From positions 1-31,032 of the IMG/VR virus record IMGVR_UViG_3300028581_001255: 31,032 nt of DNA; one strand, written 5' to 3'. The position numbers and the translations under genes are program-made. Positions 927 to 26,980 of this stretch are shown in pieces. How positions within the stretch are numbered: position 1 is the stretch's first letter; every line of letters starts with the position of its first letter. Source of the stretch: a virus. Below the pieces are notes generated by a model that saw only the letters and a list, made by a program, of their open reading frames with translations, had not been told where the DNA came from and searched no databases.

Positions 927-2219
927 TTGAACGAAGATAACGAGATTATTTATGAATTAGCAAAAGAGATAGCAGAAGATAACGGTGGTGTAAACGATTG
1001 GAGTAGAGTTAGTTTAGAACTAAAAGATAGATTTGGAATAGATAGAAGTGCAGAAGCGTGTAGGTCTGTTTTTAAGAGATTAAGAATTGAGAAGGGTGTA
1101 ATGTTAGGAAAAGGGAATAATGGAGATGATGATGTTAGTATAGAGATATTTGCTGATGGAACACAAATAAGCCAGCGTAAAATAATAATGAGTGAGAGTG
1201 ATATGAAGAACGCAAGGTTTGTTATCAATGCTCACGGGTTTGATCCAGATGAGTTTGAGTTGGTTAATTGCAAGAATAATATATGGACAAGTCAAAGTAG
1301 CGAAGATGGAGAGAAGATAAATTATCAATCCAAGATTACGATTAAACCTAAGACAATTAGTAAAGATTTAACACTTGAAGATATTAAGAGCATAGTGGCT
1401 GATTTCAAGCCATTAGAGAACGATTTAGGTGATGTTGATAGTTTCATTACCCTAACAGAAGAAAATGCGTTAGAAGTGTGTTTAGCGGATATTCATATAG
1501 GAGCATTGAGTTGGCACGAAGAAGTTGGAGAAGATAACGATTACAAGATCACCCTTGCTAAGATGCAAAGAGTTATTAAGAAGATTAGAGCATTGATTGA
1601 GTTATATCCAGTTAATAAATTATACATTTGTTTCTTAGGAGATTTCTTTCATATAGACACAGAAGCGATGACAACTACTAAAGGGACTAAAGTTGACTTT
1701 GACAGTAGACCTAAAAAGATGTTGATGAAAGGCACTGAATTGATTGTTGATATTATTAAGACTTTATCTTATGAAGTTGAAACTGAAGTATATTGGGTTG
1801 AAGGTAATCACTCAAGAAATATTGAGTTTGCTGTGTTTAATGCGATGCCTTATATATTTGCTAATTACGATAATATTAAGTTTGATGTTTCACCTAAGAT
1901 TAGAAAAGCGTTTGTGTATGGAGATAATCTAATTGGACTTCATCATGGAGAAATCAACAAGACTAATAAGTTTAATTGGCTTCAAATTGAGTATCGTGAA
2001 GAGTGGGGTAAATGTAAATATGCCGAAACTCATTCAGGACATATCCATCACGAAAGTACAACAAGTAGGGGTGGTATTACAGAAAGGTCAATGTCAAGCC
2101 CTAAACCGATAGATAAGTATGAATACGATGAAGGTTATTTAGGTGGTTCTAAAGCAGTTATGTGCTACTTGTGGCACAAGACAGAGAACCTTAAATCCGT
2201 TCATTATATTAGGGGATAA
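927..2219 (+). CDS. Metallophosphoesterase with N-terminal Myb/SANT-like domain
   Basis: A calcineurin-type phosphoesterase of 430 residues. The TTG start is chosen because an AAAGGAG site (912-918) lies 8 nt before it; the frame extends upstream without a ribosome site. Residues about 1-55 look like a Myb/SANT helix-turn-helix segment (conserved W25, A-C-R-S-V-F-K-R-L near the end). The catalytic domain runs from about 180 to the C-terminus and shows the family's metal-binding motifs in order: DIH (188-190), GDFFH (238-242), EGNH (292-295), HHG (339-341) and GHIH (371-374). Such enzymes cleave phosphodiesters or phosphomonoesters with two metal ions. The DNA-binding-like N-terminus suggests a nucleic acid substrate, but the real substrate is not visible. 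It opens the operon that continues into the glycosyltransferases and terminase. Confidence 0.85.
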   Translation: MNEDNEIIYELAKEIAEDNGGVNDWSRVSLELKDRFGIDRSAEACRSVFKRLRIEKGVMLGKGNNGDDDVSIEIFADGTQISQRKIIMSESDMKNARFVINAHGFDPDEFELVNCKNNIWTSQSSEDGEKINYQSKITIKPKTISKDLTLEDIKSIVADFKPLENDLGDVDSFITLTEENALEVCLADIHIGALSWHEEVGEDNDYKITLAKMQRVIKKIRALIELYPVNKLYICFLGDFFHIDTEAMTTTKGTKVDFDSRPKKMLMKGTELIVDIIKTLSYEVETEVYWVEGNHSRNIEFAVFNAMPYIFANYDNIKFDVSPKIRKAFVYGDNLIGLHHGEINKTNKFNWLQIEYREEWGKCKYAETHSGHIHHESTTSRGGITERSMSSPKPIDKYEYDEGYLGGSKAVMCYLWHKTENLKSVHYIRG

Positions 2220-2220
2220 T

Positions 2221-2832
2221 ATGGTTAAATTATCTATCATCATACCAACTTATAATGTTGAAGAATATATTACACAATGTCTTAATTCAATCGTTAGGTA
2301 TTTAACCGTTGATTGTCAGCTGATTATTGTTGATGATTGTTCTACTGACCACACGGTTGAGATAATAGAGCATATTATCAATGGTAATTGTAGAAGTCAG
2401 TTGGTTAAGTTAAAAGAGAATAAAGGTGTTAGTAATGCGAGAAATGTTGGTTTAGAATTAGCAAAGGGAGAATATGTTGCTTTTATAGATGGCGATGATT
2501 GGGTTAGAGCCAATTATGTTCGTGAGATATTAAATGTTGTTGATACTAAAAAAGATTGGTATGAATTGAGTTGGTGTTTTATCAATTCTCCTAACGCTAC
2601 TTTTATTGCTGGAAGATTACCAAGATGGAATAAATCAGTTTGGGCGAGAGTATTCAATAGAAGCATAATTAAAGTTGAGTTTGATATTAAACACGAGTGG
2701 GGAGAAGATGGTTTGTTTCTAAGAGAGAATATTAAAGAAGGTATGACTTGTGGTTATATTTACAAAACAATTTATATGTACAGAAATAATCGTGATGGCA
2801 GTTTAAGTGTTAAATATAAGGGGAAAAAATAA
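2221..2832 (+). CDS. GT2 family glycosyltransferase
   Basis: A 203-residue GT-A fold transferase. It starts with the typical hydrophobic strand (SIIIPTYN near residue 5), followed by DDCSTDHT and the N-K-G-x-S-x-A-R-N stretch, then GEYVAFIDGDD with the DxD-type metal/nucleotide-sugar site. It is short, covering only the catalytic domain with no membrane segment. I choose ATG 2221 because AGGGG lies just upstream and it begins directly after the phosphoesterase stop; the frame extends to 2143 only by overlapping that gene. The donor and acceptor sugars cannot be told. It is the first of three transferase genes translated as a coupled block (TAATG overlap with the next gene). Confidence 0.88.
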   Translation: MVKLSIIIPTYNVEEYITQCLNSIVRYLTVDCQLIIVDDCSTDHTVEIIEHIINGNCRSQLVKLKENKGVSNARNVGLELAKGEYVAFIDGDDWVRANYVREILNVVDTKKDWYELSWCFINSPNATFIAGRLPRWNKSVWARVFNRSIIKVEFDIKHEWGEDGLFLRENIKEGMTCGYIYKTIYMYRNNRDGSLSVKYKGKK

Positions 2833-2948
2833 TGAAAATAATTAAGACAATTTTATTGATTATGGTGCTACCGATTTTATTTATTTTAACTATTGCTTTT
2901 GGTTTATGCAAAATAAATAATGGAATAGCGAGAAGTGAATATAGATGA
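2832..2948 (+). CDS. Tiny single-pass membrane protein
   Basis: A 38-residue ORF starting with MKIIKTILLIMVL and carrying one hydrophobic stretch at about residues 5-26, then a short polar tail. The hydrophobic segment could be a membrane anchor or an uncleaved signal. It is coupled on both sides: TAATG overlap with the GT2 gene and ATGA overlap with the GT4 gene, which supports it being real although it is short. Function unknown; it might anchor or position the neighbouring transferases, which is only an inference from gene order. Confidence 0.6.
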   Translation: MKIIKTILLIMVLPILFILTIAFGLCKINNGIARSEYR

Positions 2949-3877
2949 AAATAATTTTTTATAGTTATGCGTGGTATGTTGGTGGTATGGAAAATGTTGT
3001 TTATAACTTATGCCGACTATTAAAACAATCAGGAGATTACGATATAACGATTGCTTATTTTAGCGTTAATAACGGAACTAACAAGATGCTTGGTAAGTTA
3101 TCAAAAGTTGCCAAGATTGAGTGTGTTGTTATTGGAGAATATAAATGCGATTTACTTATAAACTGTTCAAGAAAAGAACTAGATTTGCCTTTTATCAAAG
3201 CCGATAGAATTATACATTGGTTTAGTTCTTGTTTGGTTGAGAACATAGATAAGATATTGCCTGATAGTAAAGTAATATCTCAAAGCGTTTGGCATAAGAA
3301 AATGTTATTGAAGTTAGGGCTTAATTCTACTATCATAGGTAATCCGTTAGATGTAGATTTAATACTTGAATTATCTAATGAGCAAATTGACTTTAAAAGA
3401 ACCAATAATGAAACTATTTACTTGATAGTAGCAAGAATATCACACGAAAAAGGTTTTGATAGAGCAATAGACTTTATGGTAAAAAGAGCAAGAGAACATT
3501 GCAGGTTAATTGTCATTGGCGAAGCATCAAACAAAAATAACGATTTGATTAGATTGAGAGTTGAGAAAGCATTAAGAAATAAAGTATTATTTTTAGGTGC
3601 TAAAGAGAACCCTTACCCATATATTAAAATGGCTGATTTTGTATGTTGTTTTAGCGACCAAGAGATTTATGGTTTAGTTAGCGAAGAAGCACATATTTTA
3701 GGTAAACCAGTTATATTCAATCAATACGCAAGTTCAATCTATCAATTTATAAATGGTTTTGATTATTGGACTACAGATAGAGTTGTTAAAAGAAAGAATA
3801 AATGTCTTAATGTCTATAAAGACCAAAATATAGCAAGATTTAAGCGTTGGAAGGAGATTATAGATGGAAAAGATTGA
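2945..3877 (+). CDS. GT4-like glycosyltransferase
   Basis: A 310-residue GT-B fold transferase. The N-terminal half has the GGMENVVYNL motif (about 13-22) that forms the acceptor-side glycine loop. The C-terminal half opens with VARISHEKGFD, the usual start of the nucleotide-sugar domain in glycosyltransferase family 1 proteins, and carries the E-x7-E type signature in IYGLVSEEAHILGKPVI. It is slightly short for GT4 enzymes (350-400) and has no membrane segment. It overlaps the preceding peptide gene (ATGA) and the next gene by 14 nt, so the block is translationally coupled. Specific sugar and acceptor unknown. Confidence 0.85.
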   Translation: MKIIFYSYAWYVGGMENVVYNLCRLLKQSGDYDITIAYFSVNNGTNKMLGKLSKVAKIECVVIGEYKCDLLINCSRKELDLPFIKADRIIHWFSSCLVENIDKILPDSKVISQSVWHKKMLLKLGLNSTIIGNPLDVDLILELSNEQIDFKRTNNETIYLIVARISHEKGFDRAIDFMVKRAREHCRLIVIGEASNKNNDLIRLRVEKALRNKVLFLGAKENPYPYIKMADFVCCFSDQEIYGLVSEEAHILGKPVIFNQYASSIYQFINGFDYWTTDRVVKRKNKCLNVYKDQNIARFKRWKEIIDGKD

Positions 3878-4829
3878 TTTTTTAGCAACAGAAACACACT
3901 TTTTTGACCATATAGTGCCAATTTGGAAGTTATTACCAGATAAATATAAGGGAACTTTCTATGTAAATGGCACTTTTGAAGATAAAGTGATTAGAAGTGG
4001 TGTTAAATACACGATAGGTTTACCAACTGATAGTAAATTGACTTTAGTTGCGAGTTATGGCGACTATAAAAAGACAACTGGTAAGGTTCTATTTATGGAA
4101 CACGGTATAGGACATACTTACAGTAGCAAGCACCCTGCTTATGCAGGTGGTGTAGGTAAAGATAGAGTAGTGCTGTTTCTTAATCAACACGCATTGAATA
4201 ATTATAAGAACTCATTTACATACCCTTTAGTTGAAAATGTCATTATAGGCACACCTAAAATGGACAATGTAGAGTTTGAAGATGTTGAGATTAAAGATAG
4301 AAAGCCGATAGTTTGTTTATCGTTTCATTGGGATTGTTTAGTATCACCAGAGAGTAGATCTGCTTATGATTTTTATAAAGTTATGATACCTTTATTGGCT
4401 CAACGAGATGAGTTTAAGTTAATAATGCACGGACACCCACATATTGGTTGGCAAGAACAGTTTAAGGAATATAACATTGAGTTTTTAACTAATTACGCAG
4501 ATGTGTTGAAAATAGCAGATATTTATGTCAACGATAACAGTTCAACAATGTACGAGTTCATGTGTACTGGTAAGCCAATAGTAGTGCTTAATTGTCCTTT
4601 TTATAGAAGGGGTGTTAATCACGGAATTAGGTTCTGGGAATATATCGGTGGTGTTCAAGTTAATAGACATAAAGAGTTGATACCAGCCATTTTAAGAACG
4701 ATAGCGAACCCTAATGAGTTTAGGGAACTAAGACACGATATTGTCCTTAAATTGTACCCTAATAGGGGTTATGCAACTCAAACAGCAGTACAAGAGATAG
4801 TTAAGTTTCTTGATGAATTAGGAGATTAA
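3864..4829 (+). CDS. CDP-glycerol glycerophosphotransferase-like protein (TagF/TagB type)
   Basis: A 321-residue GT-B-like protein. The C-terminal part resembles the CDP-glycerol:poly(glycerophosphate) glycerophosphotransferase group: a H-G-H-P-H segment followed by ADVLKIADIYVNDNSS and YEFMCTGKPIVVLN. In bacteria those enzymes build teichoic acid chains from CDP-glycerol at the inner membrane; related proteins transfer other groups. GGAG precedes ATG 3864 at good spacing. It is the last accessory gene before the terminase, which starts at the very next base after the stop. A role in changing the host surface polymer, the virion or the DNA is possible; the call to family is moderately sure and the substrate is unknown. 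Confidence 0.65.
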   Translation: MEKIDFLATETHFFDHIVPIWKLLPDKYKGTFYVNGTFEDKVIRSGVKYTIGLPTDSKLTLVASYGDYKKTTGKVLFMEHGIGHTYSSKHPAYAGGVGKDRVVLFLNQHALNNYKNSFTYPLVENVIIGTPKMDNVEFEDVEIKDRKPIVCLSFHWDCLVSPESRSAYDFYKVMIPLLAQRDEFKLIMHGHPHIGWQEQFKEYNIEFLTNYADVLKIADIYVNDNSSTMYEFMCTGKPIVVLNCPFYRRGVNHGIRFWEYIGGVQVNRHKELIPAILRTIANPNEFRELRHDIVLKLYPNRGYATQTAVQEIVKFLDELGD

Positions 4830-25192: not shown

Positions 25193-25502
25193 ATGACAGT
25201 AAAGAATAGTTTAACAAATCAAAAGCCGAAGTTCAGCGTTGCTATACAAAGTGAAGGGTATAAGAACCTTATAAACTCAACACTTGGCGATCCACAAAGA
25301 GCGAGTAGATTTGTTGCAAGTATCAGCAGTGCAGTTGCTATAAACCCAGCGTTACAAGATTGTGATGCAGGTACAATTCTTAGCGGTGCTTTAGTTGGCG
25401 AAAGTCTTAATTTAAGCCCAAGCCCAGCATTAGGTCATTATTACTTAGTACCATTTAACGATAATGTGAATAATCGCAAGGTAGCCACATTTCAACTTGG
25501 CT
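25193..25502 (+). CDS. recT: RecT annealase, exon 1
   Basis: The first 103 codons plus the first base of codon 104 of a RecT single-strand annealing protein (starts MTVKNSLTNQK; motifs ALQDCDAGTILSGALVGESL, SPALGHYYLVPF, ATFQLG). Unspliced, the frame stops at once (TAA 25502-25504), removing the conserved G-W-K-G-x-x-Q-L-A segment that follows in this family. A group I intron separates it from exon 2 at 26469. Joining at 25502/26469 gives ggc-tgg-aag-ggt, that is, G-W-K-G, and a full 273-residue RecT. RecT coats and anneals complementary strands after resection by YqaJ. Confidence 0.88.
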
Positions 25503-26468
25503 AAACCAAATCTGGTCAAGTATAAAACCGCGTGAACCCTATTACTTAGGGGTGTGCCGATAAATCGGTGCTAACGATGAAACCCTTCAACCATTACAAC
25601 CTATGTGAAAAGTTGTAATTAAGGGCAATATCGTGCTATAATATTTATATGATAGGTATCTACAAAATTACAAATAGAATAAACGGAAAATCATACATAG
25701 GTCAAAGCAATAATATTGATCGTAGATTTAGAGAACACACTAATAAGAAAAGTGAATTAAACTTATCAATTAAGCGTGCTGTTAAAAAATACGGTAAGGA
25801 GAACTTTGATTTAGAAATATTAGAAACAATAGATATACCAAATAGAGATAAACTAAATGAACTTGAAATGTATTATATTAGTTTGCACAAACCTGAATAC
25901 AATAGAACTTTTGGGGGAAGTGGTCAAATGGGTATGTTTGCAAGTGATAAAACAAAAGAATTGTTAAGAAAATCAGGCAAAGAACAGTGGAATAACAAAA
26001 CTGATGAAGAAAAAAACAAAATATTAAAGAACTTCAAAAAGACTGAAATTGGTCATAAAGTTTCCATTGAAACAAGAGAAAAATTAAGATTGGCTAACAT
26101 TGGTAAAAAAGCCACAGAAGAAACAAAAAATAAAATGAGACAATCAATGTTAAACAAAAAATTAAATGGTTATGTTCGTGATAATAAAAAGTGGTATAAA
26201 AGAGTTGTTATCATTGAAACAAATATGGAGTTTGAAAGTGTTAAAGAATGTGCTTATTATATAGGAGTAATCCCCGCTTCCGTTAGCGGAGTTGTAACAG
26301 GTAGATATAAAACTTGTAAAGGGTATCATATTAAATATGTAGTGTAGAGACTACCTGTGATGAGTTTAACAGGGTAGGTTGGAAGATAAGTTACCAATCC
26401 AAGTGCGTGGCACACGAAAGTGTGAAGAGATAGTCCAAACCATAGTGATGATAAAATTACGGAGTTAG
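25503..26468 (+). ncRNA. Group I self-splicing intron in recT
   Basis: A 966-nt intron bounded by an exon T and an intron-final G. P1 is explicit: exon ACTTGGCT (25495-25502) pairs over all 8 positions with GGTCAAGT (25514-25521), ending in the U.G pair at the splice site. TCT (25511-25513) can pair with exon-2 GGA (P10). Hairpins follow: ACCCTA/TAGGGGT, GCCGA-TAAA-TCGGT, and TTACAAC/GTTGTAA enclosed by CCCTT/AAGGG. After the ORF, GACTA (about 26349-26354) can pair with TAGTC in GATAGTCC (P7), and CACAC-GAAA-GTGTG (26411-26424) is a GNRA hairpin. The ORF therefore lies in the L6-type peripheral loop, as in T4 td. Confidence 0.88.
25649..26347 (+). CDS. GIY-YIG homing endonuclease in the recT intron
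   Basis: A 232-residue intron-encoded enzyme that would cut intronless recT alleles and spread the intron. Residues 1-90 hold the GIY-YIG nuclease: GIY (3-5), YIG (16-18), R25/R26, H30 and the E73 region (ELEMYYI). Residues about 95-160 contain NUMOD3-type DNA-binding repeats (TKELLRKSGKEQW, ETREKLRLANIGKKATEETK). The C-terminal 45 residues (ETNMEFESVKECAYYIGV, then VVTGRYKTCKGYHI) look like a NUMOD1/HTH module. There is no ribosome site, but a TATAAT lies 6 nt before the ATG, suggesting an intron-internal promoter and a leaderless message. The ORF stops before the conserved 3' core. Confidence 0.92.
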   Translation: MIGIYKITNRINGKSYIGQSNNIDRRFREHTNKKSELNLSIKRAVKKYGKENFDLEILETIDIPNRDKLNELEMYYISLHKPEYNRTFGGSGQMGMFASDKTKELLRKSGKEQWNNKTDEEKNKILKNFKKTEIGHKVSIETREKLRLANIGKKATEETKNKMRQSMLNKKLNGYVRDNKKWYKRVVIIETNMEFESVKECAYYIGVIPASVSGVVTGRYKTCKGYHIKYVV

Positions 26469-26980
26469 GGAAGGGTTATGTTCAATTAGCGATTAGAAGT
26501 GGTCAATATAAGAAGATAAATGTTATTGCAATTAAAGAAGGGGAGTTGATTAAGTATGACCCTTTGACAGAAGATTTAGAGATTAAATTGATTGAAGATG
26601 ATTTACTGAGAGAAAAGACTAAAACTACTGGTTACTATGCGATGTTTGAATTGACTAACGGTTTTAGAAAGACAATGTATTGGGGTAAAACTAAAATGGA
26701 AACTCACGCACAAACTTACTCAAAAGGTTATCAAGCAAGAACAGGTTATACATTCTGGGAAAAGGACTTTGATGGTATGGCGTTTAAGACTATGTTAAGA
26801 CAACTAATCAGTAAATGGGGGATTATGTCCATTGAATTAAAAACTGCTTATGAAAATGATATGAGTGCAATTAGAGAAGATGGCACTAAGATTTATGTTG
26901 ATAATGATAATACAGTTAGTTTTGAACAAGTTAAAGATGATGTAGTTGTAGAAACGGTTGAACAAGAAAGTTTAGTATGA
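26469..26980 (+). CDS. recT: RecT annealase, exon 2
   Basis: The remaining part of RecT, starting with the last two bases of Trp104 and continuing KGYVQLAIRSGQYKKINV, ELIKYDPL, then GYYAMFELTNGFRKTMYW and FWEKDFDGMAFKTMLRQLI, which are conserved RecT segments, and an acidic tail. An internal ATG at 26546 is only a reading-frame start; no ribosome site precedes it, and the conserved residues upstream of it show the true protein includes exon 1. The gene overlaps the next by 4 nt. Confidence 0.88.

Follow-up and report, generated by a model that had tools for sequence, protein, structure and literature searches.

The DNA analysed here (the window) is a viral record of IMG/VR of 31,032 bp, in which recT, the gene for the phage single-strand annealing recombinase, lies at positions 25193-26980. 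Its neighbours code for a YqaJ nuclease, DUF1351 and DUF1064 proteins and a DnaC/IstB-like ATPase, a neighbourhood that fits a phage recombination and replication module. Elsewhere in the window (2143-4829) two glycosyltransferase genes and a CDP-glycerol glycerophosphotransferase-like gene are located directly upstream of the terminase gene, an unusual cargo for a small phage. The recT gene is present in two exons that match adjacent parts of the Pfam RecT family (PF03837) and are separated by 966 nt. Joined without this insert they yield a single frame of 273 amino acids, which reads ...ATFQLG-W-KGYVQLAIRSGQY..., and the predicted spliced protein matches the solved RecT of Listeria innocua (PDB 7UB2; E 1.6e-44, residues 35-241). 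Thus, three points of the first-pass annotation hold, i.e. that recT is broken in two by 966 nt, that the junction rebuilds the G-W-K-G motif of RecT (the joined exons read FQLG-W-KGY) and that the 273-residue product, the alignment of which it had proposed as a check, is a RecT protein. The main features of the locus are:

25193-25502, plus strand: recT exon 1 (Pfam RecT profile 2-61), part of the joined frame; its last base is the first of the Trp codon
25495-25502, plus strand: predicted P1 exon strand ACTTGGCT with U.G at the splice site (8/8 pairs; compensatory changes in relatives)
25503-26468, plus strand: putative group I (IA2-type) intron, 966 nt (13 same-site homologues; covariation)
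25514-25521, plus strand: predicted internal guide sequence GGTCAAGT, pairing with 25495-25502
25649-26347, plus strand: predicted GIY-YIG homing endonuclease ORF, 232 amino acids, with a NUMOD-like C-terminus (Pfam PF01541, E 5.4e-12; I-TevI catalytic domain)
26468, plus strand: omega-G, the terminal intron guanosine (G in 14/14 carriers)
26469-26980, plus strand: recT exon 2 (Pfam RecT profile 63-192, E 2.2e-26)

Among 54 non-self recT relatives from viral contigs 53 are continuous across the junction and L118 alone is interrupted, at the same position. Pattern scans using conserved pieces of the intron brought the total of same-site copies, all in recT genes of phages or prophages, to 14 (the window, L118, L137, L138, L140, L143, L144 and L146-L152), the 13 carriers beyond the window being 11 viral contigs and two Bacillota genome bins (L143 and L144, from bins named Clostridiales and Lachnospiraceae). 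L136, which represents the window's phage in a nearly identical contig and has the same intron region, was left out of the 14; recT had seemed to show too few mismatches between this contig and the window, an observation that was dropped, as most of the 59 mismatches lie in a misaligned tail. In all 14 carriers the 5' junction follows the T of GG[C/G]T, the last intron base is G and G-[W/Y]-[K/R]-G is restored, and the genes interrupted in this way belong to two distant recT subfamilies. The introns range in length from 249 nt (L138) and 275 nt (L143), both without an ORF, up to 982 nt, and in 12 of the 14 the P6 loop houses an ORF for a GIY-YIG endonuclease, the copy of L144 being frameshifted. 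Two matches to RAGATH-18 RNA are found on the contig of L138 as well (4067-4127 and 4447-4506), and in L123 recT is apparently frameshifted upstream of the junction (near position 3000) with no insert, due to either sequencing error or decay. No intron in recT was seen among 50,697 phage records, the intron core gave no BLAST match in plasmids, and a model of the 3' core, run on 392 genomes from the order to which G001 belongs, recovered only the known member among the eight candidates scored per genome.

The 8-bp P1 helix that had been proposed to end in U.G exactly where the frame can be restored is present in the window, and in every carrier P1 forms 7-8 of 8 pairs with its own exon, the pair at the 5' splice site being U.G in 14/14, as compared to a mean of 6.0 pairs between the guide sequences and intronless exons. 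At -2 the pair reads C-G in ten carriers and G-C in the other four, and at -6 L149 has G-C in place of U-A. A P10 pairing, also proposed before, exists, but is weak in the window, where it comprises just 3 bp (GGA/UCU); it measures 4-7 bp in 10 of the 13 other members and is absent or nearly so in L118, L140 and L152. Across the family P10 has a mean of 4.4 bp versus 2.2 bp for shuffled loops, with none of 2000 shuffles reaching as high. The glycine codon at the junction is GGC or GGG in all intron-bearing genes (14/14) versus 15 of 53 intronless recT genes (Fisher p 8e-7, or 4e-5 against 31 distinct intronless 16-mers, kinship being ignored), a bias of which exon co-conversion could be the source. 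Moreover, the recT frame meets a stop within four codons past the 5' splice site in 14/14 carriers, in six of them at the site itself, so that ribosomes that translate recT on unspliced RNA would be expected to halt before they reach the core.

Between these junctions the insert contains the following predicted core elements, the two hairpins between P3 and P4 being given under our own labels:

25528-25532, plus strand: P3 5' strand CCGCG, pairing with 26406-26410 (14/14 at all 5 positions, with both-side changes)
25537-25551, plus strand: conserved hairpin between P3 and P4 (covariation)
25554-25571, plus strand: second hairpin between P3 and P4 (both-side changes in 5/7 pairs)
25574-25579, plus strand: P4 5' strand, pairing with 25629-25634 (cells 100% paired; covariation in 2 pairs)
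25629-25634, plus strand: P4 3' strand, pairing with 25574-25579
25635-25640, plus strand: P6 5' strand, pairing with 26338-26343 (first 6 pairs standard in 12-14 of 14; ORF in the loop)
26349-26353, plus strand: P7 5' strand GACTA, pairing with 26431-26435 and forming a pseudoknot with P3 (invariant in 14/14)
26354-26373, plus strand: P7.1 (4/5 pairs covarying)
26377-26399, plus strand: P7.2 (3/6 pairs covarying, 100% paired)
26406-26410, plus strand: P3 3' strand CGTGG, pairing with 25528-25532
26411-26424, plus strand: P8 with GAAA loop (4/5 pairs covarying)
26431-26435, plus strand: P7 3' strand TAGTC, pairing with 26349-26353
26440-26462, plus strand: P9 hairpin (5/7 pairs covarying)

In the two half-core alignments of the 14 carriers 99% of the cells are standard and compensatory changes occur in 25 of 45 pairs, counts for which the helices were chosen with guidance from the same sequences. 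The 3' half-core (P7, P7.1, P7.2, P8 and P9) has 99.0% standard cells, both-side changes in 16/28 pairs and a covariation of 0.682 versus 0.175 when shuffled, and the 5' half-core (the two hairpins and P4) has 99.1%, 9/17 pairs and 0.416 versus 0.126, respectively. Covariation supports P3, P4, P6, P8 and P9 in the P3-P8 and P4-P6 domains, and P7 is invariant. One pair of P9 is mismatched in the window. A first, hand-made guess of the P3 pairing was dropped, as covariation pointed to CYRCG/CGYRG. The GNRA hairpin of the first-pass annotation corresponds to the GAAA loop of P8, and its core segment able to pair with GACTA is TAGTC, as placed. With 13 independent copies at the same site sharing a common anatomy, and covariation far above that of shuffled alignments, the pairings are more than a chance arrangement.

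The Rfam group I model (RF00028), a search with which had been suggested as a further check, gave no group I match (criterion >50 bits) in the window, the insert alone or the loci of its relatives. The same model, which has been noted as incomplete (PMC11878797), also misses an intron of Streptococcus phage S3b that is annotated as group I, and we therefore count its silence as uninformative and not as a refutation. R1, a model built on the 3' half-core with the window among its training sequences, scores the window at 139.9 bits, a value to be read with this membership in mind, and also detects related introns in phage genes other than recT. One of them, without an ORF, lies between the annotated genes for the N- and C-terminal parts of the tape measure protein of Geobacillus virus E3 (KP144388; L166:1501-1778; 74.4 bits). 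Two more (L142 and L145, from bins Clostridium sp. SUG825 and Erysipelotrichaceae RUG13160) interrupt a DNA polymerase III alpha-type-like gene, judging the translation by eye, and seem to carry their GIY-YIG ORF in the P8 region, not in P6; the ORF of L145 contains in-frame TGA codons. The genome of L142 (G004) has seven matches to the 3'-core model, i.e. several related introns may coexist there. A tape-measure-like gene on the minus strand of L141 (7848-8900) carries a group I intron with an HNH-like ORF, which scores 31 bits with Rfam and thus falls under the cut-off. As Rfam misses such introns, annotation pipelines can report an interrupted recT as two broken genes.

The location of a GIY-YIG/NUMOD ORF between the core halves, as annotated initially, proved right, the ORF residing inside the P6 loop. 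Residues Y5, Y16, R26, E73 and N85 are kept in the window and invariant among six aligned ORFs of the family. The catalytic domain aligns with that of I-TevI (PDB 1MK0/1LN0), both the GIY and the YIG motif being conserved along with an Arg position, yet the match is limited to this domain (~75 residues), and the C-terminus, unlike that of I-TevI, shows an I-HmuI-like NUMOD match. The ATG at 25649 lies inside an 8-nt stretch, ATATGATA (25647-25654), which is complementary to 26324-26331, and the start of the endonuclease could thus be hidden in the P6 stem of the full-length RNA.

Both helices between P7 and P3, P7.1 and P7.2, are present and covary, and their presence at this position marks subgroup IA. 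Together with DNA similarity to phage introns this makes subgroup IA2 the most likely assignment. The ORF-less intron of L143 shares ~78% identity with T-even phages over 85 nt of P7-P7.2-P8, i.e. over part of the core only, and the matching stretches of T-even and other coliphages are not annotated as introns in their records; the group I introns of these phages we take to be of the IA2 type. RecA belongs to a protein family other than that of RecT, and recA is a bacterial gene; nevertheless, Bacillus recA introns (reviewed in PMC3984707) resemble the present case in that a group I intron resides in a homologous recombination gene. L143 also has ~73% DNA identity, from P1 to P4/P5 and in part of the exon end, with the lysin-gene intron of the Streptococcus thermophilus phage S3b (AF148561), which is annotated as 'group I intron' with the endonuclease orf253. 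The S3b intron has the same two hairpins ahead of P4 and ends in a GATATAGTC core, but its host gene codes for lysin instead of RecT. Homing introns of this kind are already known. The first-pass annotation had called recT a less familiar host, and within the open-access literature we found no paper that describes an intron in recT, which appears to be undescribed there as a target.

The comparison supports the reading as group I intron in all its main elements, namely the exact junction, P1, the core helices P3-P9, the location of the ORF and the rebuilt RecT motif, and we assign a probability of roughly 0.94 to the recT insert being a mobile, phage-type group IA2 intron that codes for a GIY-YIG homing endonuclease, as judged from comparative sequence data. 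It is very improbable that the intron has decayed and lost splicing, leaving recT broken in this phage. The short P10 and the mismatched P9 pair of the window, as well as the frameshifted endonuclease of L144, might be taken as signs of decay, but the core is intact by its R1 score (again with the window in the training set), all 8 P1 pairs are present, the endonuclease ORF is open and retains the GIY-YIG residues, exon 2 is a full RecT frame and the near-identical contig has the same intron region.

Even less probable is a mere insertion of an endonuclease gene into recT, with the two RecT halves being made separately. Exon 2 does offer a TTG start candidate at 26546, but starting there would drop the conserved WKGYVQLAIRSGQY segment, and such an insertion would account neither for one exact boundary in 14 inserts with ribozyme pairings across both junctions nor for the two ORF-less members that retain the core. 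For an intein, a group II intron or an assembly artefact, which together we regard as the most remote case, no supporting point was found: stop codons immediately past the 5' boundary leave no continuous frame for an intein, the insert has neither a reverse transcriptase ORF nor a group II match in Rfam, and independent assemblies as well as two genome bins contain the same structure.

Assuming a mobile group I intron, we infer the following course of splicing, cleavage and homing. The transcript would fold into a ribozyme, a guanosine would attack after U25502 at the P1 U.G pair, and exon 1 would then attack after omega-G26468, joining T to GG and producing the Trp104 codon of a normal RecT. 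Ribosomes on unspliced RNA would halt at a UAA that coincides with the 5' splice site, so that the core would stay free to fold. The product of the P6-loop ORF may cut an intronless recT near the insertion site in a co-infecting phage, and repair of the cut gene would copy the intron across.

When mapped onto a tree of 55 RecT proteins, the presence of the intron requires eight changes, at least seven of which are forced by well supported branches, and L119, the closest relative of L137, is intronless. The endonuclease of L137 groups, with 100/99 support, in a clade whose remaining members come from the other recT subfamily, and keeping that subfamily apart on the endonuclease tree is rejected (p-AU 0.012). 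An AU test of clades by recT subfamily on the intron-core tree was not significant (p 0.073). The patchy distribution on the recT tree and the grouping of one endonuclease across recT subfamilies thus suggest that the intron moves between phages.

Homing introns typically land in conserved codons. Here, Q-L-G-W-K of the window's RecT corresponds to Q107-L108-G109-Y110-K111 of Listeria RecT, and the intron follows the first base of the codon equivalent to Y110 (Trp in the window). In the Listeria innocua protein (7UB2), the numbering of which was fixed via the residues named in PMC9772228 and the gene of which is not described as interrupted, Y110 makes contact with the inner DNA strand, as does K111, and Q107 forms a wedge into the base pairs. 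By splitting the codon of a DNA-contacting residue the intron would occupy a site that recT cannot easily change.

One may even imagine, although we consider it rather unlikely, an intron lineage that has specialised in recT and exploits this host gene for its spread, with homing depending on correct splicing. If so, cutting the intronless recT of a competitor would both disable the competitor's recombinase and make the break for homing, and the intron-bearing phage's own spliced RecT would anneal that break, copying the intron across. With the intron as presented here, recT, a gene of recombination and annealing, is added to the genes known to be targeted by homing introns of phages. The 14 copies at one site, two of which lack an endonuclease, provide a natural system for asking whether homing uses the recombinase that is made by the interrupted gene.
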